NCBI RefSeq assembly: GCF_019430885.1
Contig: NZ_JAHYBZ010000007.1
Coordinates: forward strand, 124,001 to 188,000
Direction: 5' to 3'
Source of the DNA: Roseomonas alba
GTDB taxonomy: Bacteria > Pseudomonadota > Alphaproteobacteria > Acetobacterales > Acetobacteraceae
Length of the DNA stretch: 64,000 nucleotides
Under the pieces are notes generated by a model. It was not told the DNA's origin and made no database searches. It was given only the letters and a program-made list of their open reading frames with translations. Shown piece after piece: positions 6,656 to 63,450 of the stretch. Within the stretch, counting starts at the first letter, position 1, and the number at the start of each line of letters is the position of its first letter. The position numbers and the translations under genes were made by a program.

Positions 6656-8149
6656 CTACCCCTTGATCTTCGCGACCGTCGCCGTCGTGGAATTCCCCGG
6701 CAGGAGTTGCGCCAGCCGCACCTCGCCGCCGTAATCCTGCACGATGTCGCCGCCGACCACCTGCTCCACCGTGTAGTCGGCGCCCTTCACCAACACGTCG
6801 GGCTTCAGCAGGCGGATCAGTTCGACCGGGGTGTCCTCGTCGAACACCGTCACGCAATCGGCGGTGGCGAGCGATGCCAGAACCGCCGCACGGGCCGCTT
6901 CGCCCTGGATGGGCCGCGCCGGGCCCTTCAGGCGCTTAACCGAAGCATCGGAATTCAGCCCAACGACCAGCCGGTCGCACCAGGACCGCGCCTGTTCCAG
7001 CAGATGGACGTGCCCGGGATGCAGCAGATCGAAGCAGCCATTGGTGAAGCCGATGCGCCAGCCGCGGCGGCGCCAGCGTTCCACCTGCTCAGCCGCGGCC
7101 GCGCGGGACATCACCTTGCGCAGCGCGCCGCGCTCGGGCGTCAGCGCCTCGGTGAGTTCTTCCTCGCGCGCCACGGCGGTGCCGACCTTGCCCACCACGA
7201 TGCCCGCCGCGATGTTGGCCAGCCGCGCCGCCACTGGCAGGGGTCGTCCGGATGCGATCGCCGCCGACAGCGTCGAAACCACCGTGTCGCCGGCGCCGGA
7301 GACGTCATGCACCTCCTCCGCCTCGGCAGGGAAGTGGTGAATGCGGTCGCCTTCGAGCAGCGTCATGCCATCCTCGCTGCGCGTCACCAGCACGGCGTGG
7401 AAGCCGTGGGCGTCGCGCAGCGCCCGCATGGCGGCGATGATCCCGTCCTCGGTGTCCACCTTCATGCCGGTGGCCTCGGCCAGTTCGCTGCGGTTGGGCG
7501 TGACCAGGTCGGCGCCGGCATAGCGCCCGTAGTCGCGCCCCTTGGGGTCCACCACGACCTTGCGGCCGGCGGCCTGCGCGGCCTCGATCAGGCGCTTCGC
7601 GGTATCGCCGCCGAGCACGCCTTTGCCGTAGTCGGACAACACCAGAACGGCCGTCGCGGCGACGGCATCGCCGGCGATCTTCACCATGCGGTCCGCGAGG
7701 CGCGGATGGATGGACTGCACGACCTCCTGATCCGCGCGCAGCAGATGCTGGCCATTGGCAATGAAGCGGGTCTTGGTCGTGGTGGTCCGGCCGCCCTGGA
7801 CCAGCAACCAGGGCTCGACGCCGGGTTGGCCACCAATCAGGCCGGTCAGGTCGCTGCCCGCCTGGTCGTCACCGACCACGGAGACGAAGGCGACCGCGGC
7901 ACCCAGCGCCGTGAGGTTGCGCACGACATTGCCGGCCCCGCCGGGCATCGCGACCTCGCGGTCCACGGCGAGCACCGGGACAGGCGCCTCGGGGCTGATG
8001 CGGCGGACCGAGCCATAGACATAGCGGTCGAGCATCGCGTCGCCGACCACAAGGACGGAGGCGCGCTTCAGGCCACGGATGGCCTCCGCCAGCTCGGCCA
8101 CAGGGATTTCCGGCATCGGCCGGTCGGGGTCGGACACGTGGCCTGTCAT
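6656..8149 (-). CDS. hldE: Bifunctional D-glycero-beta-D-manno-heptose-7-phosphate kinase / heptose-1-phosphate adenylyltransferase
   Basis: 497-residue fusion of two steps of ADP-heptose synthesis for the lipopolysaccharide inner core. Residues about 25-340 are a PfkB/ribokinase-type kinase: MPGGAGNVVRNLTALGA at about 68-84 and the catalytic motif DVSGAGDTV at 282-290. Residues about 365-497 are a cytidylyltransferase-like domain with FTNGCFDLLHPGHVHLLEQA (368-387), which contains the HxGH-type nucleotide-binding motif. Length and domain order match E. coli HldE. The start ATG follows GGGTAGGGC; an internal ATG at 8116 is possible. No other heptose gene lies beside it in the window. Confidence 0.96.
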   Translation of the reverse strand: MTGHVSDPDRPMPEIPVAELAEAIRGLKRASVLVVGDAMLDRYVYGSVRRISPEAPVPVLAVDREVAMPGGAGNVVRNLTALGAAVAFVSVVGDDQAGSDLTGLIGGQPGVEPWLLVQGGRTTTTKTRFIANGQHLLRADQEVVQSIHPRLADRMVKIAGDAVAATAVLVLSDYGKGVLGGDTAKRLIEAAQAAGRKVVVDPKGRDYGRYAGADLVTPNRSELAEATGMKVDTEDGIIAAMRALRDAHGFHAVLVTRSEDGMTLLEGDRIHHFPAEAEEVHDVSGAGDTVVSTLSAAIASGRPLPVAARLANIAAGIVVGKVGTAVAREEELTEALTPERGALRKVMSRAAAAEQVERWRRRGWRIGFTNGCFDLLHPGHVHLLEQARSWCDRLVVGLNSDASVKRLKGPARPIQGEAARAAVLASLATADCVTVFDEDTPVELIRLLKPDVLVKGADYTVEQVVGGDIVQDYGGEVRLAQLLPGNSTTATVAKIKG

Positions 8150-8194
8150 GTTGCCAGCCCTACCCTATGGTTGTGTTGCAACGCAAGGTAACGG

Positions 8195-9520
8195 TCATGC
8201 GCCTGCCATGGTCAGGCCCTCGAGCCGGACCGTGGGGCTGTCCGTTCCGCGACGGAATTCCAGGTCATTGGCCGGAGTCATGCGCTGGAACATGTCCGTG
8301 AGGTTGCCGGCGATGGTCAGTTCGCTCACCGGTTCGGCAAGTTGGCCGTTGCGGATCATGAAGCCCGAGGCGCCGCGGCTGTAGTCGCCGGTCACCCCGT
8401 TCACACCCATGCCGATCAGATCGGTGATGTAGAGGCCCTCGGCGATGTCGGCCATCAACTCCGCTGGCGTCATGGTTCCGGGTTCGAGCCAGAGATTGGT
8501 CGGCGCCGGGCCGGGCGGGCCTCCCGTGCCCCGGCTGGCATGGCCGGTGGACCCCAGGCCAAGTTGCCGCGCGGAACGCCAGTCAAGCAGCCAGGTCTTG
8601 AGCACGCCATCCTCGACGATGGCGCGGGCTTCACCCGGCATGCCTTCGCCATCGAAGGGGCGGGAGCGCAGGCCGCGCCGGCGCAGCGGATCGTCACGCA
8701 CGGTCAGGCCGGCGGCGAGGACCCGCTCGCCCATCCGGTCCTTGAGGAAGGAAGTGCCGCGCGCGACCGCCGCACCGTTGATTGCCCCGGTCAGATGGCC
8801 GAGCAGGCTGCCGGACACGCGTGGGTCAAACACCACTGGAATCCGCGCGGTCTTGGGGCGGGTCGGGTTCAGCCGGCGCACCGCAAGTTCCCCCGCCTTG
8901 CGCCCGATCGCCACCGGATCGCCGAGATCGGCGAGATGCACGGTCGAGGACCAGTCGTAGTCGCGTTCCATCCCCGTGCCCGAACCCGCGACCGCGGTGG
9001 TTGAGAGGGAATGGGACGTGCGGGCATAGCGGCCGGCAAAGCCGTTGGACCCGACGAGGGCGATCTCGTAGCGACCCCAGCCGGCATCGGCGCCGTCGGA
9101 ATTCGTGACGCCGCGCACAGCCATGGCGGCTTCCTCGGCCGCCGCGGTACGGGCGAGCAGGTCATCCGCACTCGGTTCCGCCGTATCCGCGAGGTCGAGG
9201 TCGCGCGGCGGGATGGCGACCGCCTCGGGCAGGCCGGCGAAGGGGTCCTCCGGCACCACGCGGGCCATGGCGACGGCGCGTTCGGCGAGCGTCGCGAAGC
9301 CCTTGGGGTCCGGGTCGGTCGAGGAGACGATCGCCACGCGCCGGCCGAGGAAGACGCGCAGGCCAAGGTCGCAGCCCTCGGAACGCTCAAGCTGCTCGAT
9401 GGCGCCGAGACGGCGGCGCACGGAGAGCGAGGTGGAGGCGACCAGCAGCGCATCGGCGGCATCGGCCCCGGCGCGCTTCGCGGCGGCGATCAGGTCGGAA
9501 AGCGTGGTGAGGCGGTCCAT
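8195..9520 (-). CDS. pmbA: PmbA/TldD family metalloprotease homologue (TldE subunit)
   Basis: 441 residues with the two-domain layout of TldE/PmbA: an N-terminal segment about LLVASTSLSVRRRLGAIEQLERSEGCDLGLRVF and a C-terminal half containing PVVFDPRVSGSLLGHLTGAINGAAVARGTSFLKDRMG and GVNGVTGDYSRGASGFMIRNGQ. TldE pairs with TldD, which carries the zinc site, in maturation of modified peptides and antitoxin degradation; no tldD is in the window. Two adjacent ATG codons (9523 and 9520) compete; 9520 has the better spacing from a weak GGGT. The gene overlaps nothing and lies 38 bases from the methyltransferase-like gene upstream. Confidence 0.92.
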   Translation of the reverse strand: MDRLTTLSDLIAAAKRAGADAADALLVASTSLSVRRRLGAIEQLERSEGCDLGLRVFLGRRVAIVSSTDPDPKGFATLAERAVAMARVVPEDPFAGLPEAVAIPPRDLDLADTAEPSADDLLARTAAAEEAAMAVRGVTNSDGADAGWGRYEIALVGSNGFAGRYARTSHSLSTTAVAGSGTGMERDYDWSSTVHLADLGDPVAIGRKAGELAVRRLNPTRPKTARIPVVFDPRVSGSLLGHLTGAINGAAVARGTSFLKDRMGERVLAAGLTVRDDPLRRRGLRSRPFDGEGMPGEARAIVEDGVLKTWLLDWRSARQLGLGSTGHASRGTGGPPGPAPTNLWLEPGTMTPAELMADIAEGLYITDLIGMGVNGVTGDYSRGASGFMIRNGQLAEPVSELTIAGNLTDMFQRMTPANDLEFRRGTDSPTVRLEGLTMAGA

Positions 9521-9561
9521 CATGTTACCCGTCTGGTATGGGGGAGCAGGGGCGGCGACCC

Positions 9562-10248
9562 TCAATGTCCTGCGATCGCCTGGCAGCACTCGTCGATGGC
9601 CTCGGCCTCCTTGGCCAGCCGCAGGACCGGCAGATGGCGCTGGAGATCGAACCACGTCATGCGCGAAATGGCCTCTAGATCATCGTAGATCGGCTTTCGC
9701 GCCGTGCCCTTGCCATACCAGACAAGGGTTTGCGGGTTCCCGTTCTCGTTGATGGTCCTGTAGTCCAGGAACGGGAAGAAGTCGTGGATCAGGAAGACGA
9801 TCTTGAACACGTCTCCATGCCAAGCGTTGCTCTTGTCGCCGGCCTGATGCCGCAGGCGATGCGCTTCCGCCTGTTGCCGGTGAGCCGAATAGACATCGTC
9901 GGGCAGCGTGTCGTCGATCAGTATGGCCGAACGCCGCGTGGTATGCGCGAGGGTATTCGTCAGATCCCTCACGACCTGCTCGAAGACATGCAAGCCGTCG
10001 ATGAATACAATCCCGAAATCCCCGTCCTTCGGAAACTCCGAGAAATAGCGATCGCTCGTGATCGCATGGAAGCGGGTCATGGCATTGGCATGCACGGCGG
10101 TATCGAAGACGAAGCCCGGATCGACCGCCACCCGCTCCGGCACCTCGACGTCCAGGAAGGTCGCGCCAGCCCTGACGCCGATCTCGAGATAACGCTCGAC
10201 GCCCAGGCGACCGGCCAGGGCGTTGATGCGGCGGGCGGAAAAGTTCAT
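9562..10248 (-). CDS. Class I SAM methyltransferase-like protein
   Basis: 228 residues. RYLEIGVRAGATFLDVEV (about 19-36) is the glycine-rich SAM-binding loop of a Rossmann methyltransferase, and FGIVFIDGLHVFEQVVRDLTN (about 77-97) is the DGLH element seen in the class that includes surface-glycan-associated methyltransferases. The C-terminal third (HDFFPFLDYRTINENGNPQTLVW) is less conserved. Its base composition is slightly less GC-rich than its neighbours. The substrate is unknown. It shares orientation with pmbA downstream, but no functional link can be read from sequence. Confidence 0.7.
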   Translation of the reverse strand: MNFSARRINALAGRLGVERYLEIGVRAGATFLDVEVPERVAVDPGFVFDTAVHANAMTRFHAITSDRYFSEFPKDGDFGIVFIDGLHVFEQVVRDLTNTLAHTTRRSAILIDDTLPDDVYSAHRQQAEAHRLRHQAGDKSNAWHGDVFKIVFLIHDFFPFLDYRTINENGNPQTLVWYGKGTARKPIYDDLEAISRMTWFDLQRHLPVLRLAKEAEAIDECCQAIAGH

Positions 10249-10305
10249 CGCGTCACTCCGGTCCAGCCTTCAGTTTCGCCATGATGCCCGCCAGCACCGG
10301 GTGAT

Positions 10306-10453
10306 GTCAGAGCCCGCTTCAGAACGCGCCATGCGGCGCATGCCCAATGCCGGCACCGGCCGGCACCCCCGGTCGGCCACCCAGCGACAGTATCCCGGAT
10401 GGGTGACCGGGTGGGGCGCGGGCCGGTTCCGGTCTTCTCAATTGGGCTCTCAG
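10306..10453. repeat. Long-hairpin repeat, family 3, copy A
   Basis: About 148 bases between the methyltransferase gene and the M16 protease gene. Arms CCGGCACCGGCCGGCACC..CGGCCACCCA and TGGGTGACCGGGTGGGGC..GGGCCGGTTCCGG fold around the loop GCGACAGTATCCCGGA. The outer ends AGAGCCC (left) and GGGCTCT (right) also pair. The right end overlaps the stop codon of the M16 gene (TCA at 10450-10452 on this strand). It matches a second copy at 47459-47599 in arms, loop (CAGTATCC) and the terminal GGCTCTCAG. Confidence 0.75.
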
Positions 10454-11715
10454 GCTGCCAGCCGCTCCATGATCATGTCGACGGCGGGCACGTGCTCGGC
10501 CGGCCCCATCGTCGCCAGCGTCGGCGCCGCGCGGAACATGTGCGCCGCAGCCTGCTGCACCTGCTCCACCGTGACGGCGGCGATCTTCGCCTTGGTCTCC
10601 TCGACCGGGATGACCCGGCCGAAGACCTGCAGCTGCCGGGCGAGCTGCTCGCAGCGGCTGCCGGTGCTTTCCAGCGACATCAGCAGCGAGGCACGGAGCT
10701 GCGCCTTGGCGCGGGCCAGCTCATCCTCGGTGACGTTGTGCTGGACGGCGCGCAGCGCCTCGATCGTCACGGGCATCAGCTCGGCGGCTTCCTTCTCGCC
10801 CGTGCCGGCGTAGATCTGGAACAGGCCGCCATCGCGGAAGGGCGAGGCAAAGGAATAGATCGAATAGACCAGCCCGCGCTTCTCCCGGATTTCCTGGAAC
10901 AGGCGGGAGGACATGCCGCCGCCGAGCAGCGTCGAGAGAAGCTGCGTCGGGTAGTGCAGCGGATCGCCGTGCTGGACCGAGGGAAAGCCGAGCACGATGT
11001 GCACTTGGTCGAGGTCGCGGGTCTCGCGGAACTCGCCCCCGGCGTAGCGGGCGGCCTCGGCGGTCGCGACGCCGGTCTGCGGCAGGTCGGCGAAGTGGGT
11101 CTTCACCAGATCGAGCAACGCGTCGTGCTCCAGCGCGCCGGCTGCGGCGACGACCATCTGGCCCGGGCCGTAATGGCTGCGCATGTAGCCGGTCAGCGCA
11201 TCGCGGCTCATCGCCTTGATGGTGTCCTCGGTGCCGAGGACGGGGCGGCCCATTGCCTGCTGGGGAAAGGCCGTCTCCTGGAAATGGTCGAAGACGATGT
11301 CGTCGGGCGTGTCGTTGGCCTGGCCGATCTCCTGCAGGATCACGCCGCGCTCGCGCTCGATCTCCTCGGGCGCGAAGGTGGAATGGGTCAGGATATCGCC
11401 GATGATGTCGACGGCGAGGCCCGTGTCCTCCTTCAGCACCTTGGCGTAGAAGGCGGTCTGTTCGCGCGCGGTGTAGGCGTTGAGATGGCCTCCGACATTC
11501 TCGATCTCGCGCGAGATGGCGGCCGCGTCGCGGCGTGCCGTCCCCTTGAAGGCCATGTGTTCGAGGAAGTGGGAGACGCCGTTGACCTCCGGCGCCTCGT
11601 GCCGCGTGCCGACGCCGACATAGGCGCCGACCGAGACGGTCTCTACGCGCGGCATGGTCTCGGAAACGACGGTCAGGCCATTGGGCAGGCGGGTGACGCG
11701 GACGGCATCGGTCAT
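10450..11715 (-). CDS. M16 family zinc metalloprotease (mitochondrial processing peptidase-like)
   Basis: 421 residues with the inverted zinc motif HFLEH at 49-53 (context GVSHFLEHMAFKGT) and the third ligand Glu near 129 (RGVILQEIGQ). A second half reads GGGMSSRLFQEIREKRGLVYSIYSF, the second-domain signature of M16B peptidases. The family cleaves small peptides and presequence-like substrates, and bacterial members are close to mitochondrial MPP beta. It is encoded 18 bases downstream of thrC in the same direction. The thrC-M16 arrangement recurs in alphaproteobacteria in my recollection. Its stop codon lies inside the end of a family 3 repeat. Confidence 0.95.
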   Translation of the reverse strand: MTDAVRVTRLPNGLTVVSETMPRVETVSVGAYVGVGTRHEAPEVNGVSHFLEHMAFKGTARRDAAAISREIENVGGHLNAYTAREQTAFYAKVLKEDTGLAVDIIGDILTHSTFAPEEIERERGVILQEIGQANDTPDDIVFDHFQETAFPQQAMGRPVLGTEDTIKAMSRDALTGYMRSHYGPGQMVVAAAGALEHDALLDLVKTHFADLPQTGVATAEAARYAGGEFRETRDLDQVHIVLGFPSVQHGDPLHYPTQLLSTLLGGGMSSRLFQEIREKRGLVYSIYSFASPFRDGGLFQIYAGTGEKEAAELMPVTIEALRAVQHNVTEDELARAKAQLRASLLMSLESTGSRCEQLARQLQVFGRVIPVEETKAKIAAVTVEQVQQAAAHMFRAAPTLATMGPAEHVPAVDMIMERLAA

Positions 11716-55262: not shown

Positions 55263-56225
55263 TCACGCCGGCTGGGTCTGCTGGATCGCCGACAGCATCC
55301 AGCGCCCGCCCGGTCCCTTGCGCACGAAGGTCCAGAGCTCGGTCGCGGTCTGCCGCTGGGTCGTGCTGCCCTCGACGACCTGGTTGGTCGCATTGTCGAA
55401 GGTCGCGTCCAGCATCGAGAATCGCATGGCGACGGTGGCGTAGTCCTCGCCGTCCTCACTCCACGCCTCGGCCAGATCGCCCTGTTCCAGGCGGATGTCG
55501 CGCGTCTCGTTGCGCCAGTTGCGGGCCTCGAGGTCGCGCAGGTCCTGGGCGAAGAAGCCGACCATCTCCGGCGTCGCCAGGGTGCGCAGGCCCTGCAGGT
55601 CACGCCGCGACCAGGCGGCGTTGATGTCCTTCAGCGTCTGCTCGAAGTCCTGGAAGTCGGCCGGGCGGATCTGCAGCGGCCCGCCGGCCCGCACTGGCTC
55701 GGCGGCCTTCATGCCGCCCATGCCGCCGAACTGCTTCGCCTCGGGCTGCGCCTGATAGGCATAGGGCGCGGGCCCGCCCGCGGTCGCCGGGCGGCGACCA
55801 CGGATCAGGCGCATCACGAACATGATGGCGAAGCCGATCAGGGCGATCTGCAGCAGCATGCCCAGCATGGCGCCGAAACCGCCGCCGCCGCCGAACAGGC
55901 CGAAGCCCAGAAGCGCGCCGATCAGCCCGCCGGTCAGCAGCGCGCCGCCGAAGGATCCGAAGAAGCCGCGATTCGGCGCTGCCCCCGGCACGGTGCCGGG
56001 ACGCGCGGCGGGGCTGGTCGCCGGGGAGCCCGGCTGTGGCGTCGTGGTGCGGTTGAACTGGGTGCCGCCGCTGGGCGCGGTCGGCGTCGAGGGCGGCGCG
56101 GAATAGGTCCGGCTGCCGCGGCTGCCCGAGGAGAAGCCGCCCCCGGCCCGGGCCTCGGCCAGCGCGGGCGCGAGGACCAGGGCCAGGGCGGCCATGGCGG
56201 TCAGGAAAGTGGCGGTGCGGCGCAT
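55263..56225 (-). CDS. Tim44 domain-containing membrane protein
   Basis: 320 residues: signal peptide (MRRTATFLTAMAALALVLAPALA), a Gly/Ser/Pro/Thr-rich linker, two helices (about 88-108 and 115-138, GALLTGGLIGALLGFGLF, LLQIALIGFAIMFVMRLI), then a Tim44-like domain (about 180-320, FEQTLKDINAAWSRRDLQGLRTLATPEMVGFFAQDLRDLEARNWRNETRDIRL). Bacterial Tim44-domain proteins are envelope-associated; their role is unclear. Start 56225 is favoured by the signal peptide; an ATG at 56246 is the alternative. Confidence 0.85.
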   Translation of the reverse strand: MRRTATFLTAMAALALVLAPALAEARAGGGFSSGSRGSRTYSAPPSTPTAPSGGTQFNRTTTPQPGSPATSPAARPGTVPGAAPNRGFFGSFGGALLTGGLIGALLGFGLFGGGGGFGAMLGMLLQIALIGFAIMFVMRLIRGRRPATAGGPAPYAYQAQPEAKQFGGMGGMKAAEPVRAGGPLQIRPADFQDFEQTLKDINAAWSRRDLQGLRTLATPEMVGFFAQDLRDLEARNWRNETRDIRLEQGDLAEAWSEDGEDYATVAMRFSMLDATFDNATNQVVEGSTTQRQTATELWTFVRKGPGGRWMLSAIQQTQPA

Positions 56226-56378
56226 CGGTCTTGGCGTCTCCGACATGAACTTTGCGCAATATAGGCGATCCGCTGCGAAGTTTCGATGGGGGTCCGGGCG
56301 CAACGCTTCGTTCATCCGCCCGGCCGATGCTGGCCCCTGCGCGCTGGTCGTCCGGCCGCGCCTGCGCAGGATGCCAGA

Positions 56379-57596
56379 ATGCCCGTGTCGGAGAGTCCCG
56401 CCGCCCAGGAGGCCGCGCCCGCGCCATCGGGGCCTGGGGCGGACGCCATCCGCCGCACCCTGCGGGGACCGCCGGGCCGGTTGGCCCTGCGCCTCGCCGC
56501 GCCGGCAATGCCCGCACGCCGGCGGGTCGCGCTCGCCCTGCTCGAGGAAGCCGGCCGGCCACGCGGCGGCACGGTGCTGGAAACCGCCGAGGGCGACCTG
56601 CTGCTGACCGAGGCCGCCTCGGTCGACGGCACACGCGTCGCCGACCTGCTCGAAGGGCTGCTGGGAGCCGCTGTCGAACGGCTCGATCTGCCCGAAGGCG
56701 CGGCGCGGCTGCTCGCCCTGCCCGGCCTCGCCCCCGCTGCCCCGGCACAGGCGGTCGCCCCTTCTGCCACGGGCATCGAGGCCCTGGCCGATGCCGCGCC
56801 CTTGCCCGCGCTGCTGCGGCGGGACGGGGTGCTGTACATCGCTCGCGGTGCCCCGCAACGCTTGGCCCTGCTGCGCCTGCGCCTGCCGGTCGCCGCCGTG
56901 GCGCCACATCTGGGGCCGGCGGCGCAGGATGGCGACGTCGCACGGCATGCCCGCGACCGGCTGCGCGGGCGGCTGCTCGCCGCCCTCGCCGAGCCGGCGC
57001 GGCGCGACGGACTGCTCGGCGCCATGCCGCCCGTACCGCTGCTGATCGACCTGCCGCTCGCCCTGCTGCCCGAGCTGCCCGCCCCGGCCGCGGAGGAGGA
57101 ACCTGCCCCCGCCCCGGCCCTCGTCGCCACATTGTCGGTCGGCGAAGCCATGACCGACGGCCTCGCGGAACGCCGCGCGGCCCTGCGCCAGGCGGGCTGG
57201 GGCCTGGCGGTGCGGGGGCTGAACGCGACACGGCTCGCCCTGCTGGCGCCGGAAGCGTTACCGGCTGACCTGCTGCTGCTGCGCTGGTCACCGGCGCTTG
57301 CCGACCGCGCCGCCGCCAGCGCCCTGCGGCGCGTCGATCCCGCCCGGCTGGTGCTGACCGGCTGCGACGGGTCGCCGGCGCTGGAATGGGGGTTCGGCCT
57401 CGGCATCGCCCGCTTCGCCGGCCCTTGGATCGACACGCTAATGGCCGCGAAACGCATGGCCGCCTGCGCCCATGCCACAGCCTGCACCCGCACCGCCTGT
57501 GCCGCCCGCGCCCGGGCCGCGACGACGGAGGGCCGCCAGGGCTGCGCCGACCGCGCCCTGCTCGCGGGGCTGCTGCCGGCCGAGGCGGCATCATGA
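56379..57596 (+). CDS. Degenerate EAL-like protein with C-terminal cysteine cluster
   Basis: 405 residues, not confidently in a named family. The C-terminal half resembles a worn EAL barrel: ERRAALRQAGWGLAVRGLNATRLALLAPEALPADLLLLRWSPAL, then RLVLTGCDGSPALEWGFGLGIARFAGPWID, without the EAL acidic residues. It closes with four cysteines (CAHATACTRTACAARARAATTEGRQGC), spaced C-x5-C-x4-C-x14-C, a possible metal or redox site. AGGA lies 7 bases before the ATG. It overlaps a paralogous gene (ATGA), and the pair precede an ABC exporter. Confidence 0.6.
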   Translation: MPVSESPAAQEAAPAPSGPGADAIRRTLRGPPGRLALRLAAPAMPARRRVALALLEEAGRPRGGTVLETAEGDLLLTEAASVDGTRVADLLEGLLGAAVERLDLPEGAARLLALPGLAPAAPAQAVAPSATGIEALADAAPLPALLRRDGVLYIARGAPQRLALLRLRLPVAAVAPHLGPAAQDGDVARHARDRLRGRLLAALAEPARRDGLLGAMPPVPLLIDLPLALLPELPAPAAEEEPAPAPALVATLSVGEAMTDGLAERRAALRQAGWGLAVRGLNATRLALLAPEALPADLLLLRWSPALADRAAASALRRVDPARLVLTGCDGSPALEWGFGLGIARFAGPWIDTLMAAKRMAACAHATACTRTACAARARAATTEGRQGCADRALLAGLLPAEAAS

Positions 57597-58774
57597 CGTT
57601 GGAGGAAGTGCCCGTCCTCGGGGCCATGGGGCCCTCGCCGGGCGCAGCCGCGGCAGTCGCCCTGGCCGGGCTGGTGCGCGAAGCCGTCGCCGCCGGCGTC
57701 GAGCGCCGCGTGCTGGTGTTCCGACCCGGCCGCCTCGCCCCCGCTCGCCGGCGGGAGCCGCAGATCTCCCTGCTGCGCAGCGCCTGGGACGGGCTGCGCC
57801 GGACCTCCCGCACCCGGGTCTTCGCCCTGCCGCGCGGCGGGCTGGTGGCGATCGAACCTTGCCCGGCCCATCACCTGCTGGAGGCCGAGCGCAGCCTGGC
57901 CGACATGCTGGAACCGGCCGAGGCGGCGGCCTCGATATCCCTGCTGCGGCTGCCCGACCAGGCGGCGGCGGTGCTGGCGGCGGTCGAGGAATCGCTCGGC
58001 CTGCTGGCGGCCGTCCGCGCCGCCACCCAGACGGCAACGGGGCGCGCGCCGAACGGGGAAGCGATCACCGGGGCGGAACGGGCGCTCGCCTCGGCCGATG
58101 TCTCGGCCTTCCTGCGGCGGCGCAAGGTCTGTCGCCTGACGCCCGGCGGCGGTGCGCCCGAGGCGTTGTGGGAGGATCTGCGCCTGTCCCTGCACGATGT
58201 GCGCGACGCGCTGCTGCCGGGGACCGAGCTGAGGCTCGCCCCCGGGCTGACGCGGCGGCTGCGGCGCGTGCTGGACCGGCGTCTGCTCGCAGGACTGGCG
58301 CGCACCGAGGAGCTGCGCCGCATCGGGCCGATCAGCCTCGCGCTCGGCATCGATGCGGTGACCTCTCCGGATTTCCTCCGGCTCGATGCGCTGTGGCCGC
58401 TGGCGCTGCGCGGGGACCTGACCGTGGCGCTCGCGATCGAGGACGCGGCGATGGATCCGGCGGGCTTCGCCTTCGCGCGCGACCTCCTGCGCGCGCGCGG
58501 GCACCGCACCATGCTGGACGCGACGGGCCCCTCGGCCCTGGTCACCCTGCCGCCCGCACGGGCGGGTATCGCGCTGGTGCGGCTGCGCTGGTCGGATGCC
58601 CTGCCCGCCCTCGGCTCCCCCCAGGCCGAGGCGCTGCGCGCGGCCATGCCCAGCGCGCCGGACGCCGTGGTGCTGTCCGGCGTCGACCGTCCCGCCGCCA
58701 TCGCCTGGGGGTGGGAGATGGGCATCACTCTGTTCCAGGGCAGGCTGATGGAAGGCCGGCGGCCGCAGGGCTGA
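57593..58774 (+). CDS. Degenerate EAL-like protein, second of a tandem pair
   Basis: 393 residues. The end is clearly related to the upstream protein: GIALVRLRWSDALPAL..AVVLSGVDRPAAIAWGWEMGITLFQGRLMEG. The last part matches the EAL C-terminal pattern (GVD..ai.wg...Gi..fQG), but the catalytic EAL and DDFGTG-type motifs are absent. The N-terminal 200 residues are helical and Leu/Ala-rich (EEVPVLGAMGPSPGAAAAVALAGLVREAVAAGVERRVLVFRPGRL). Probably a c-di-GMP-like binding or scaffold protein rather than an active phosphodiesterase. ABC exporter genes start 43 bases after. Confidence 0.6.
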   Translation: MTLEEVPVLGAMGPSPGAAAAVALAGLVREAVAAGVERRVLVFRPGRLAPARRREPQISLLRSAWDGLRRTSRTRVFALPRGGLVAIEPCPAHHLLEAERSLADMLEPAEAAASISLLRLPDQAAAVLAAVEESLGLLAAVRAATQTATGRAPNGEAITGAERALASADVSAFLRRRKVCRLTPGGGAPEALWEDLRLSLHDVRDALLPGTELRLAPGLTRRLRRVLDRRLLAGLARTEELRRIGPISLALGIDAVTSPDFLRLDALWPLALRGDLTVALAIEDAAMDPAGFAFARDLLRARGHRTMLDATGPSALVTLPPARAGIALVRLRWSDALPALGSPQAEALRAAMPSAPDAVVLSGVDRPAAIAWGWEMGITLFQGRLMEGRRPQG

Positions 58775-58817: not shown

Positions 58818-59570
58818 ATGGAAACGCCAGCGCTGCTCGTCGAGGGCCTCACCAAGACCTACCGCCCCGGCGACCGGCCGGCCGTGGACGGGCTGAGCTT
58901 CACCATGCCCCTGGGCCAGACCTGGGGGCTGCTCGGCGGCAACGGGGCGGGGAAATCCACCACCATCGCCATGCTGCTCGGCCTGCTGGTGCCGAGCGCG
59001 GGCCGCGTCGTCGCGCTCGGGCACGACATGGCGACGGACCGTTTCGCGGCACTGGCGCGGATGAACTTCTCCTCCCCCTACATCGCGCTGCCGCATCGCC
59101 TGACCGTGGAGGAGAACCTGCGCGTCTATGCGCATCTCTACAGCGTGCCGGACATGAAGCACCGCATCGCGGAATTGCTGGAACATTTCGCGCTGACCGA
59201 ATTCGCCAGGCGCCCCGCGGGTCAGCTCAGCGCCGGGCAGAAGACGCGCGTCGCGCTGGCCAAGGCACTCATCAACAAGCCGGCGCTGCTGTTGCTCGAC
59301 GAACCCACGGCGAGCCTCGACCCCGACACCGGCGACTGGGTGCGCAGCGCGCTGGAACGCTACCGCGCGGACAGCGGCGCGGCGATGCTGCTCGCCAGCC
59401 ACAACATGGCGGAGGTGGAGCGGCTGTGCTCGCACGTGCTGATGCTGAAGGGCGGCAGCGTGGTGGATGCGGGCAGCCCGGACGACCTGCTGCAACGCTA
59501 CGGGCGGGACGATCTGGAGGAGGTGTTCCTCGACATCGCACGCGGACGGGCGCGGGAGAGCGTGGCATGA
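58818..59570 (+). CDS. ABC transporter ATP-binding subunit (ABC-2 exporter)
   Basis: 250 residues. Walker A GGNGAGKST (40-48), Q-loop region NFSSPYIALP, signature LSAGQKTR (137-144), Walker B LLLLDEPTASLD (157-168), H-loop in LASHNMAEVER. The subfamily exports drugs or polysaccharides with a separate ABC-2 permease. The permease gene is 256 bases downstream, beyond a family 1 repeat. The start ATG is 58818; upstream TTG/ATG are not preferred. Confidence 0.95.
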   Translation: METPALLVEGLTKTYRPGDRPAVDGLSFTMPLGQTWGLLGGNGAGKSTTIAMLLGLLVPSAGRVVALGHDMATDRFAALARMNFSSPYIALPHRLTVEENLRVYAHLYSVPDMKHRIAELLEHFALTEFARRPAGQLSAGQKTRVALAKALINKPALLLLDEPTASLDPDTGDWVRSALERYRADSGAAMLLASHNMAEVERLCSHVLMLKGGSVVDAGSPDDLLQRYGRDDLEEVFLDIARGRARESVA

Positions 59571-59581
59571 GGCGCGGCGCG

Positions 59582-59812
59582 CGGGAGGGGTTTTGCCCCT
59601 CCCGGACCCTCCCCACCAAAGGCCCTGTGGCCTTTGGAAACCGTCACTTGGCACCGGGCGCCGCTGGCGGGACGGATACCAAAGCCCGCGCTTGCGCACG
59701 AAGCGCGCTTGGAGGGTTTCATGTGACGGGCCTGCCGGGCACCAAGTCCCGGCGGTCCAGGCTGCACGGCAGCCTGACGGGGGAGATCCCGAGGGGGCAG
59801 CGCCCCCTCCGC
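59582..59812. repeat. Mosaic palindromic repeat, family 1, copy 11 (between ATPase and permease)
   Basis: Left: GGGAGGGGTTTTGCCCCTCCC, CCAAAGGCC..GGCCTTTGG, AAACCGTCACTTGGCACCGG. Right: GGCACCAAGTCCCGG, substitute cassette CCAGGCTGCACGGCAGCCTG, GAGGGGGCAGCGCCCCCTCC. It fills the whole gap to the permease start. Confidence 0.85.
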
Positions 59813-59826
59813 TTCGGAGCCAACCC

Positions 59827-60630
59827 ATGACCGGTTCCGCCGCGCGCCGCATCTGGGGCCTGATGTATCGGCACCTGGCGCTCTACCGCCGGTCCTGGCC
59901 GCGGGTGCTGGAGCTGATGTACTGGCCGGTGCTGCAGATGGTGGTGTGGGGCTTCATCACCGCCTATCTCGCCGGCGTGCAGGGCAATACGGCATCGGTC
60001 GCGGCGGGCGTGCTGCTCGGTGGCGTGCTGTTGTGGGAGGTGACGCTGCGCAGCCAGATGGGCTTCGCCATCTCCTTCCTCGAGGAAGTCTGGTCGCGCA
60101 ATCTGGGGCACCTCTTCGTCTCGCCGCTGCGGCCGTGGGAACTGGTGGCGGGCCTCGCCGCGATGAGCGTGCTGCGCACCGTCGCCGCGGTACTGCCGGC
60201 GATGGTGCTGGCCTTTTTCCTCTACGGCTTCGGGGTGTGGACGCTGGGGCCGGTGCTGGTGCTGTTCGTCGCCGCGCTGATGGCAATGGGCTGGGCGGTG
60301 GCGCTGGCCGTCACCGCGCTCATCCTACGCCACGGCGCGGGGGCCGAGGCCCTGGCCTGGGGCGTGATGTTCGGCATCGCGCCCTTCGCCGCGGTGTTCT
60401 ACCCGGTCGCGATCCTGCCGGGCTGGCTGCAGCCTGTCGCGCTCACGATTCCGGCGGCGCATGTCTTCGAAGGGATGCGCGCCGCGCTGACCCACGGTGT
60501 CACGGCCTGGGACCATCTGGCCTGGGCGTTCGTGCTGGATATCGTCTGGCTGGCCGTGGCGGCGTGGATCTTCCTCGCCCAGTTCCACCAGGCGCGGGTG
60601 CGCGGCGCGCTGCTGAACATCGGGGAGTGA
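59827..60630 (+). CDS. ABC-2 type transporter permease
   Basis: 267 residues, six helices. YRRSWPRVLELMYWPVLQMVVWGFITAYL and LPGWLQPVALTIPAAHVFEGMRAAL are the ABC-2 permease features. It should pair with the ATPase at 58818; a repeat lies between them but the orientation is the same. The ATG follows the repeat end by 14 bases, with no strong ribosome site (GAGCCAACCC). Confidence 0.92.
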   Translation: MTGSAARRIWGLMYRHLALYRRSWPRVLELMYWPVLQMVVWGFITAYLAGVQGNTASVAAGVLLGGVLLWEVTLRSQMGFAISFLEEVWSRNLGHLFVSPLRPWELVAGLAAMSVLRTVAAVLPAMVLAFFLYGFGVWTLGPVLVLFVAALMAMGWAVALAVTALILRHGAGAEALAWGVMFGIAPFAAVFYPVAILPGWLQPVALTIPAAHVFEGMRAALTHGVTAWDHLAWAFVLDIVWLAVAAWIFLAQFHQARVRGALLNIGE

Positions 60631-62986: not shown

Positions 62987-63110
62987 GGCGCGGGGGATAG
63001 CCCGGAACGGCCGGTGGGGGGAGGGCCGCGTGGATCGGGCTAAAAGGGATAGGCACAGTCATGGGGAAGAGCGCCGGCCCCGTAAGCGCGACGATATGGC
63101 GAAGGCGGGC

Positions 63111-63450
63111 CGGGTAGGGGCTTCGCCCCTCCCCGGACCCCACTCCACCAAAGGCCCGAGGCCTTTGGAAACCGTCACCTGGCGCCGTGCGGTAGCGGCT
63201 TTCCGCCCCCCACCACGCGTGCCGTGCACAGAGGCAGGCCTGGGCACTCATTCCGAAATCAGCGCAAAGTGCCAATGAAAATCGTCACTTGGCGCCTCGT
63301 GCCACGGTCAGGATGAGTGCCGAAACCCACCTTTGCGCATGAAGGGCGTTCGGCGGGGACATTCTTCCTGTCGTGCCCAGTGCCGAAAGACTGCGTTCCA
63401 AGTGCTCCAAGCACTTGGCGGGGTGGTTTGGAGGGGCGGCGCCCCTCCAA
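63111..63450. repeat. Mosaic palindromic repeat, family 1, copy 13
   Basis: Within 62987-63536. Left: GGTAGGGGCTTCGCCCCTCCCC, CCAAAGGCC..GGCCTTTGG, AAACCGTCACCTGGCGCCG. A second AAAATCGTCACTTGGCGCC box lies at about 63279. Right: TTCCAAGTGCTCCAAGCACTTGG cassette and GGAGGGGCGGCGCCCCTCC. The flanking 120 bases to the left and 86 to the right are featureless. Confidence 0.8.

Follow-up and report, generated by a model that had tools for sequence, protein, structure and literature searches.

FimX and LapD exemplify degenerate EAL receptors that have retained their contacts to bis-(3′–5′)-cyclic dimeric guanosine monophosphate (c-di-GMP). Here, we describe a family of degenerate EAL proteins that departs from this pattern, starting from two overlapping genes, A and B, which lie in a 64,000-nucleotide stretch of Roseomonas alba DNA (hereafter the window). 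Tentatively, and with just short of an even chance of being right, we read A and B as a non-catalytic pair of the c-di-GMP network that has decayed in this lineage to a scaffold. The source genome comprises 6.3 Mb, and the nearest B proteins among named relatives stem from species of Neoroseomonas, a genus listed by NCBI under the Acetobacteraceae, Alphaproteobacteria. The family appears to be old, undescribed and alphaproteobacterial: It is unnamed in the libraries searched, and among the papers listed by a literature search none dealt with the pair, its cysteine tail or its neighborhood.

FimX contacts c-di-GMP via Q463 and R481 among others, and LapD is a transmembrane receptor (both from an excerpt of PMC7288161). 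Our family shares the degenerate EAL fold with FimX, but keeps the glutamine together with the ligands of metal 1 and replaces the arginine; it has therefore decayed differently from FimX, while the window pair has lost the glutamine and most of the metal ligands. LapD provides the best structural match of the B model and has the same non-catalytic GGDEF–EAL order, as far as predicted folds go, and some family members lie directly behind a gene of the LapG type (BTLCP). In contrast to LapD, the seven BTLCP-adjacent family proteins that we checked show no clear transmembrane-like stretch; moreover, the window pair lacks the substrate-binding glutamine and arginine, and no BTLCP gene was seen beside it. 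LapG itself is a BTLCP, a family with a C-H-D triad, and its cysteine is required (excerpt of PMC3032545). In Desulfovibrio, the HD-GYP-type receptor DvhD, which is partnered by the LapG-like protease DvhG, acts in the manner of LapD (excerpt of PMC13090378). Likewise, a protein with HD_5 and PAS domains and a BTLCP adjoin in seven of our loci, but here it is a cytoplasmic degenerate EAL protein that adjoins the HD and BTLCP genes, and c-di-GMP binding by the HD protein is putative.

A and B Are Paralogues with a Predicted EAL Fold

A first-pass annotation of the window had taken A and B for two overlapping paralogous genes with a shared C-terminal motif, with a C-x5-C-x4-C-x14-C tail on A and an EAL-like barrel in both. 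All of these points withstood closer analysis: The genes overlap in ATGA, BLASTP aligns the proteins at 33% over 108 residues (E 5e-6, a single comparison), and because a profile–profile comparison aligns 315 columns at E 1.7e-16, A and B are paralogues over nearly their whole length. A contains five cysteines (329, 363, 369, 374 and 389), of which the last four lie within the final 43 residues and fit the proposed tail. Purifying selection seems to act on both genes, as ratios of nonsynonymous to synonymous substitution (dN/dS) are 0.05–0.33 in six species pairs; together with their conservation, these ratios speak against a fragment or pseudogene.

The EAL fold is seen in the AlphaFold models of both proteins, whose mean predicted local distance difference test (pLDDT) values are 84.0 for B and 84.9 for A. 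In Foldseek searches, dual GGDEF–EAL chains rank first for A as well as for B, and MorA (4rnf) is matched by the B model at E 9.7e-11 and by the A model at 5.3e-8. VIA-align superimposes the B model best on LapD (6pwk_B; Z 17.1, root-mean-square deviation (rmsd) 3.1, 211 residues) and the A model on PA3825-EAL (4y8e_A; Z 14.0, rmsd 3.6, 217 residues), the latter score being equalled by other EAL chains and by 5xgb (two-domain fit with rmsd 20.4). The N-terminal half of the models is GGDEF-like by predicted fold only.

At the level of sequence, the Pfam EAL profile (PF00563; gathering cut-off 31.3 bits) scores B at 11.4 bits, below the cut-off, and does not match A. Four of eight distant relatives reach 41.5, 36.8, 31.9 and 31.3 bits and the other four 12.7–23.6 bits; the best match of a distant member has an E-value of 1.3e-10, and 11 of 14 A-type proteins match at E≤0.01. 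In hhalign comparisons with the canonical EAL domains of the window genome, untailed members align at E 5.5e-9 with a probability of 95. Descent of A and B from EAL proteins is thus supported by fold and profiles, and the standard EAL profile overlooks the most decayed members of the family. Taken alone, the window proteins yielded nothing significant in Pfam, NCBIfam and PADLOC, nor did B in a sequence search of the PDB. When the PDB was searched with the A profile, the sequence matches (STN1, cysteine desulfurase) had E-values of no less than 0.004 and are probably fortuitous.

One Half of the EAL Active Site Is Conserved in the Wider Family

To compare active sites, we profile-aligned 100 members from outside the window's relatives to canonical EAL domains, including, as for the trees below, only members that span most of the profile; the set contains near-copies, so that it does not represent 100 independent cases. 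Kept are the glutamine (in 100 members), the glutamate of the EAL motif (97), the asparagine (100), the first glutamate of ExTE (98), the first aspartate of DDFG (97), the lysine (100) and a Gln-Gly (100). Lost are the second aspartate, which falls into an alignment gap, the glutamate of AEGVE, the second glutamate of ExTE and the arginine after EAL. Only 16 of 388 columns are at least 94% conserved, and 8 of these 16 are the kept EAL active-site positions. Compared with canonical EAL phosphodiesterases, represented by RocR, the family shares the barrel fold and the equivalents of Q161, E175, N233, E265 and D295, but lacks those of D296, E352 and R179 (numbering and residue roles from an excerpt of PMC7911125).

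The window pair differs from its wider family. Of the seven side chains that the family keeps, B retains Asp309 and Gln382 alone, with Asp195 in place of a glutamate, and both proteins lack most of the catalytic and metal-binding residues of EAL domains (EAL glutamate, asparagine, glutamate, both aspartates, lysine, AEGVE glutamate). Where the substrate arginine would stand, the pair and its relatives have Ala, Ser, Asp, Pro or Val. Judged by residue loss, the EAL domain of the pair appears non-catalytic, and the pair has lost most of the ligand site that the wider family still retains. The claim of the first-pass annotation that the metal-binding EAL residues are missing is consequently correct for the window pair, but not for the wider family, in which the metal-1 site is kept.

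The conservation of the metal-1 ligands Glu, Asn, Glu and Asp and of the lysine (97–100% in the 100 divergent members) would also be expected if the family, though not the window pair, consisted of active single-metal enzymes acting on another nucleotide. We consider this quite improbable: With the AEGVE glutamate and the second aspartate lost, catalysis by the two-metal mechanism known from EAL domains is precluded in that form. The same site bears on a CsrD-like function, in which a degenerate GGDEF–EAL protein acts on RNA turnover and not on c-di-GMP. CsrD (NF008281) shares the degenerate domain order and is the best NCBIfam match of four of the eight distant members (E 2e-4 to 0.04); however, these scores of 12–20 bits are far under the family cut-off of 663, the window pair does not match at all, and RNA binding would leave the strict retention of the EAL metal-1 site unexplained; we regard this explanation as the most improbable of those weighed.

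The Tailed Protein Is Found Next to an Untailed Partner

The family profile detects members in 109 of 387 genomes and 77 of 264 genera in a search of the class (E≤1e-8), and in 21 of 397 genomes in a search of the phylum, two of which lie outside the class (E 4.5e-10 and 4.5e-9); these counts are based on one genome per species plus fetched regions. In the window's genus, B is matched in 35 of 35 genomes and A in 33 of 35. Among the best 30 loci of the genus (L005–L034), 28 show the cysteine tail, the remaining two being L028, where the A frame is broken, and L017, where no A is visible. Outside the window's family, an untailed partner follows each of the 14 tailed genes, among them that of the frame-broken L131. 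In this last locus (G331, 7824–10777), a frameshift in the genome or the assembly divides both A and B between two frames.

Among the matches listed, an A-type gene was judged present in 13 of the 387 class genomes, based on the score and on a match extending into the tail, and each of these genes adjoins a B-type gene. The four tail cysteines account for 4 of the 13 invariant columns across 14 A proteins, which are 18–43% identical to the first. No A clearly apart from B was seen in the loci examined, A standing at a contig end with its neighbor invisible in L047, L048 and L060. Conservation of the pair, which the first-pass annotation had named as a check, is thereby borne out in one direction, as B-type genes are often unpaired. 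A tally of tails over 153 termini relied on a crude finder that missed known ones (window, L072–L074, L121, L130).

In a tree of 112 rows, which omits 13 of 125, the 13 A rows that do not belong to the window's relatives group in a single clade (SH-aLRT 98) apart from their B partners. In a tree of 80 rows, from which 32 further long or redundant rows had been dropped, constraining all 17 A rows together raises the log-likelihood by 5.1 (p-AU 0.654). A single origin of the tailed partner is hence favored, not proved, on trees that involve long branches.

Co-Occurrence with c-di-GMP Signaling and a LapG-Type Neighbor

We compared 80 family-positive genomes, hand-picked as 78 of the 109 class positives plus G036 and G055 (31 were omitted, several of them weak matches), with 80 family-negative genomes, taken from handles G037–G159 and counted as negative by their absence from the positive list. 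GGDEF proteins occur in 80 of 80 positive versus 49 of 80 negative genomes (p 2.5e-11, kinship uncorrected). The difference persists in genomes of up to 2.5 Mb (23 of 23 versus 23 of 49, p 2.7e-6) and in larger ones (57 of 57 versus 26 of 31, p 0.004). The window genome itself encodes six EAL domains above the Pfam cut-off.

The same comparison bears on a role of the family as a motility effector of c-di-GMP, placed at the pole or motor in the manner of FimX or TipF. FliF is found in 75 of 80 positive versus 35 of 80 negative genomes (p 3.0e-12), and within GGDEF-positive genomes in 75 of 80 versus 29 of 49 (p 3.6e-6), again uncorrected for kinship; in the window's clade, 30 of 36 genomes have it. 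Nevertheless, G028 and G031 have an intact pair although FliF was not found there, five of the 80 family-positive genomes contain GGDEF proteins with no FliF found, and none of 20 annotated proteins around family genes (19 neighbors plus the Tim44-like protein of the window) is flagellar, although many neighbor clusters were left unannotated. All in all, we deem a motility effector unlikely.

A further connection is offered by gene neighborhoods, for which we sampled 99 genomes with a fetched region from 50 families; flanks extended to at most about 7 kb, and some were ended by contig ends. In 8 of the 99 genomes and 4 of the 50 families, a BTLCP gene (PF06035) lies directly upstream of the family gene on the same strand (L133, L152, L155, L187, L188, L189, L202 and L217; four loci in f34, two in f94 and one each in f90 and f169). 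A divergent HD_5-PAS protein is encoded beside the BTLCP gene in seven of these eight loci, whereas L155, the eighth, is cut off at this point by a contig end. The L202 stretch contains BTLCP, family gene, regA, regB, ATP-binding cassette (ABC) ATPase and permease. In the BTLCP neighbors, C164, H199 and D214 are invariant (seven aligned), and a hydrophobic N-terminal stretch is present in all four that were checked. The HD_5-PAS protein of L152 looks transmembrane; its HD and HHE motifs, in what we take to be their usual form, look lost by eye. These loci possibly constitute an alphaproteobacterial module akin to Lap and Dvh, and the linkage supports placing the members concerned in c-di-GMP control of the cell surface. 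HvyA of Caulobacter, another BTLCP, acts on the capsule, so the family-adjacent BTLCP may also be of a kind other than LapG.

Proposed Role of the Family and of the Window Pair

On this basis we propose that A and B are partner proteins, possibly in contact as a heterodimer, each composed of an N-terminal half that resembles GGDEF domains by fold only and of an EAL barrel without catalytic activity. The family's role in the c-di-GMP network would be that of a receptor or adaptor and not of a phosphodiesterase: The ancestral barrel, equipped with one metal site, the glutamine and the lysine, would bind a metal–nucleotide ligand, with c-di-GMP as the candidate, without cleaving it. In some lineages, the gene is coupled to those of a transmembrane HD-domain protein and a periplasmic protease of the LapG type; this suggests, as the output, a cytoplasmic component of an inside-out control of the cell surface. 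The four-cysteine tail of A most likely holds zinc and serves pairing with B or with a third partner. In the window lineage, both barrels have been stripped of most of the site, probably leaving a ligand-free or differently liganded scaffold, which an ABC-2 exporter probably accompanies in the same operon. The idea of a c-di-GMP receptor pair, raised in the first-pass annotation, is accordingly plausible for the family, given the GGDEF co-occurrence, the half-kept site and the LapG-type neighbor in some genomes, but weak for the window pair, whose pocket residues are mostly gone.

Several observations weigh against this proposal. With regard to fold, whole-chain TM-scores are low (0.35–0.44 for the B matches ranked 1–14 in Foldseek), probably owing to a different domain arrangement; tailed members align only weakly with canonical EAL domains in hhalign (E 1.9e-5, probability 54%), and the GGDEF half has no support from sequence in comparison with two GGDEF domains of the window genome (probability 0.9%). 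With regard to the ligand, the position of the substrate arginine holds serine or alanine in 95 of the 100 members, and because this FimX-type residue is replaced, the residues from which one would usually predict c-di-GMP binding do not predict it here. In window B, the glutamine has become R177, the asparagine A250, a glutamate A279 and the lysine R330; in window A, all seven side chains are changed, with D149 in place of the glutamine. Genome size, motility and kinship act as confounders of the GGDEF co-occurrence, and two queries found no BTLCP near tailed pairs, in a search that covered genomes other than that of the window. Finally, the tail is not strictly tied to the pair: A tailless A stands beside B in L076 and L079, where A is short, and in L186 (G734, from the window's family), and L077 has retained B, but no A was found there; in these four loci, A is apparently undergoing erosion. 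Conversely, the unpaired paralogues of L206 (1965–3296, plus strand) and L208 (2355–3644, minus strand) carry another four-cysteine tail, C-x10-C-x2-C-x11-C, possibly gained independently; a tail therefore does not require a B partner.

A bolder form of the proposal, which we regard as rather unlikely, is that the family constitutes a new class of receptors that decayed opposite to FimX. It would have kept the metal-1 site, the glutamine and the lysine, dropped the substrate arginine, the second aspartate and the catalytic glutamate, and would read a metal-bound nucleotide, be it c-di-GMP, pGpG or another. In some lineages it would supply the cytoplasmic third part to a Lap- or Dvh-like protease switch working from the inside out, in another branch it would form a pair with a zinc-binding or redox-active four-cysteine tail, and the window pair would later have been stripped of most of the ligand site. 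Irrespective of this, a widespread alphaproteobacterial family that retains the metal half of the EAL site offers a testable receptor candidate in many genera, one branch of which has a conserved pair with a metal-ligand-like tail and another a LapG-type protease as a neighbor.

The ABC Genes and a Presumed Older Gene Order

The features of the locus are compiled in Table 1. As the first-pass annotation had stated, the ABC genes follow the pair after 43 bases, counted from the stop of B to the likely ATG start of the ATPase gene, for which the list of open reading frames gives TTG 58782.

Table 1. Features of the A–B locus (positions in the window; aa, amino acids).
Feature	Position	Strand	Length	Remark
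Gene A, degenerate EAL-fold protein with four-cysteine C-terminal tail	56379..57596	+	405 aa	GGDEF-like N-terminal half by fold only
Cysteine tail of A (Cys363, 369, 374, 389)	57465..57545	+		Block pLDDT 84–91 in the model
Gene B, degenerate EAL-fold protein without cysteine tail	57593..58774	+	393 aa	GGDEF-like N-terminal half by fold only
ABC ATPase with a DrrA-like best NCBIfam match (below cut-off)	58818..59570	+		Conserved neighbor of A–B in the genus
ABC-2 type permease, DrrB-like (below cut-off)	59818..60630	+		Conserved neighbor; start approximate

The order B–ATPase–permease recurs in 29 of the best 30 loci of the genus, and most of these loci have a gap of about 40–60 bp from B to the start of the ATPase match, while a few have a longer one, the maximum being about 230 bp. 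Such adjacency is what one would expect if A–B regulated the ABC-2 exporter, for instance by binding its ATPase or the partner of the latter and gating export, as the first-pass annotation had considered. The wider neighborhoods point in another direction: Of the 99 genomes, 14 (11 families) have homologues of the ABC ATPase and permease in the vicinity of family genes, usually beyond regA–regB, and a RegA homologue is present in the same stretch in 13 of these 14, mostly on the strand opposite to the family gene. Moreover, for the 14 pairs outside the window's family, none of these ABC genes was seen in the flanking regions fetched, although several of these regions were short. Because the gene order looks inherited, the ABC genes behind B need no functional tie to the pair; adjacency within the genus stands, but the control of export by A–B is, in our estimation, unlikely.

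Further constituents of this neighborhood, each identified from one example, are homologues of RegA and RegB near the family gene in 25 of 99 genomes (15 families) and HldE in 16 (11 families); at least one of RegA/RegB, HldE or the ABC genes is found in 33 of 99 genomes (20 families). A typical order, as in L134 and L142, is hldE, the family gene, regA and regB on the other strand, and the ABC genes on the strand of the family gene. In L120, A adjoins a divergent hldE with B behind it; L084 is alike, with an hldE fragment at the contig end, and L076 and L079 retain hldE beside their short A. The simplest reading is an old gene order from which lineages lost parts.

Within the window, about 250 bp (59571–59817) separate the ATPase and permease genes, where most relatives in the genus have short gaps. 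This interval contains an intergenic repeat (59574–59660), a second copy of which lies at 63105–63191 (71%). Just upstream of A, an open reading frame on the minus strand (55263–56240) gives a weak match of the Tim44/TimA type (34.9 bits versus a cut-off of 80). In the small-genome family f64 (L123, L125, L127 and L129), the pair stands in a fixed order beside genes for a TIGR00266-family protein and ribosomal protein L21 and one conserved unnamed gene.

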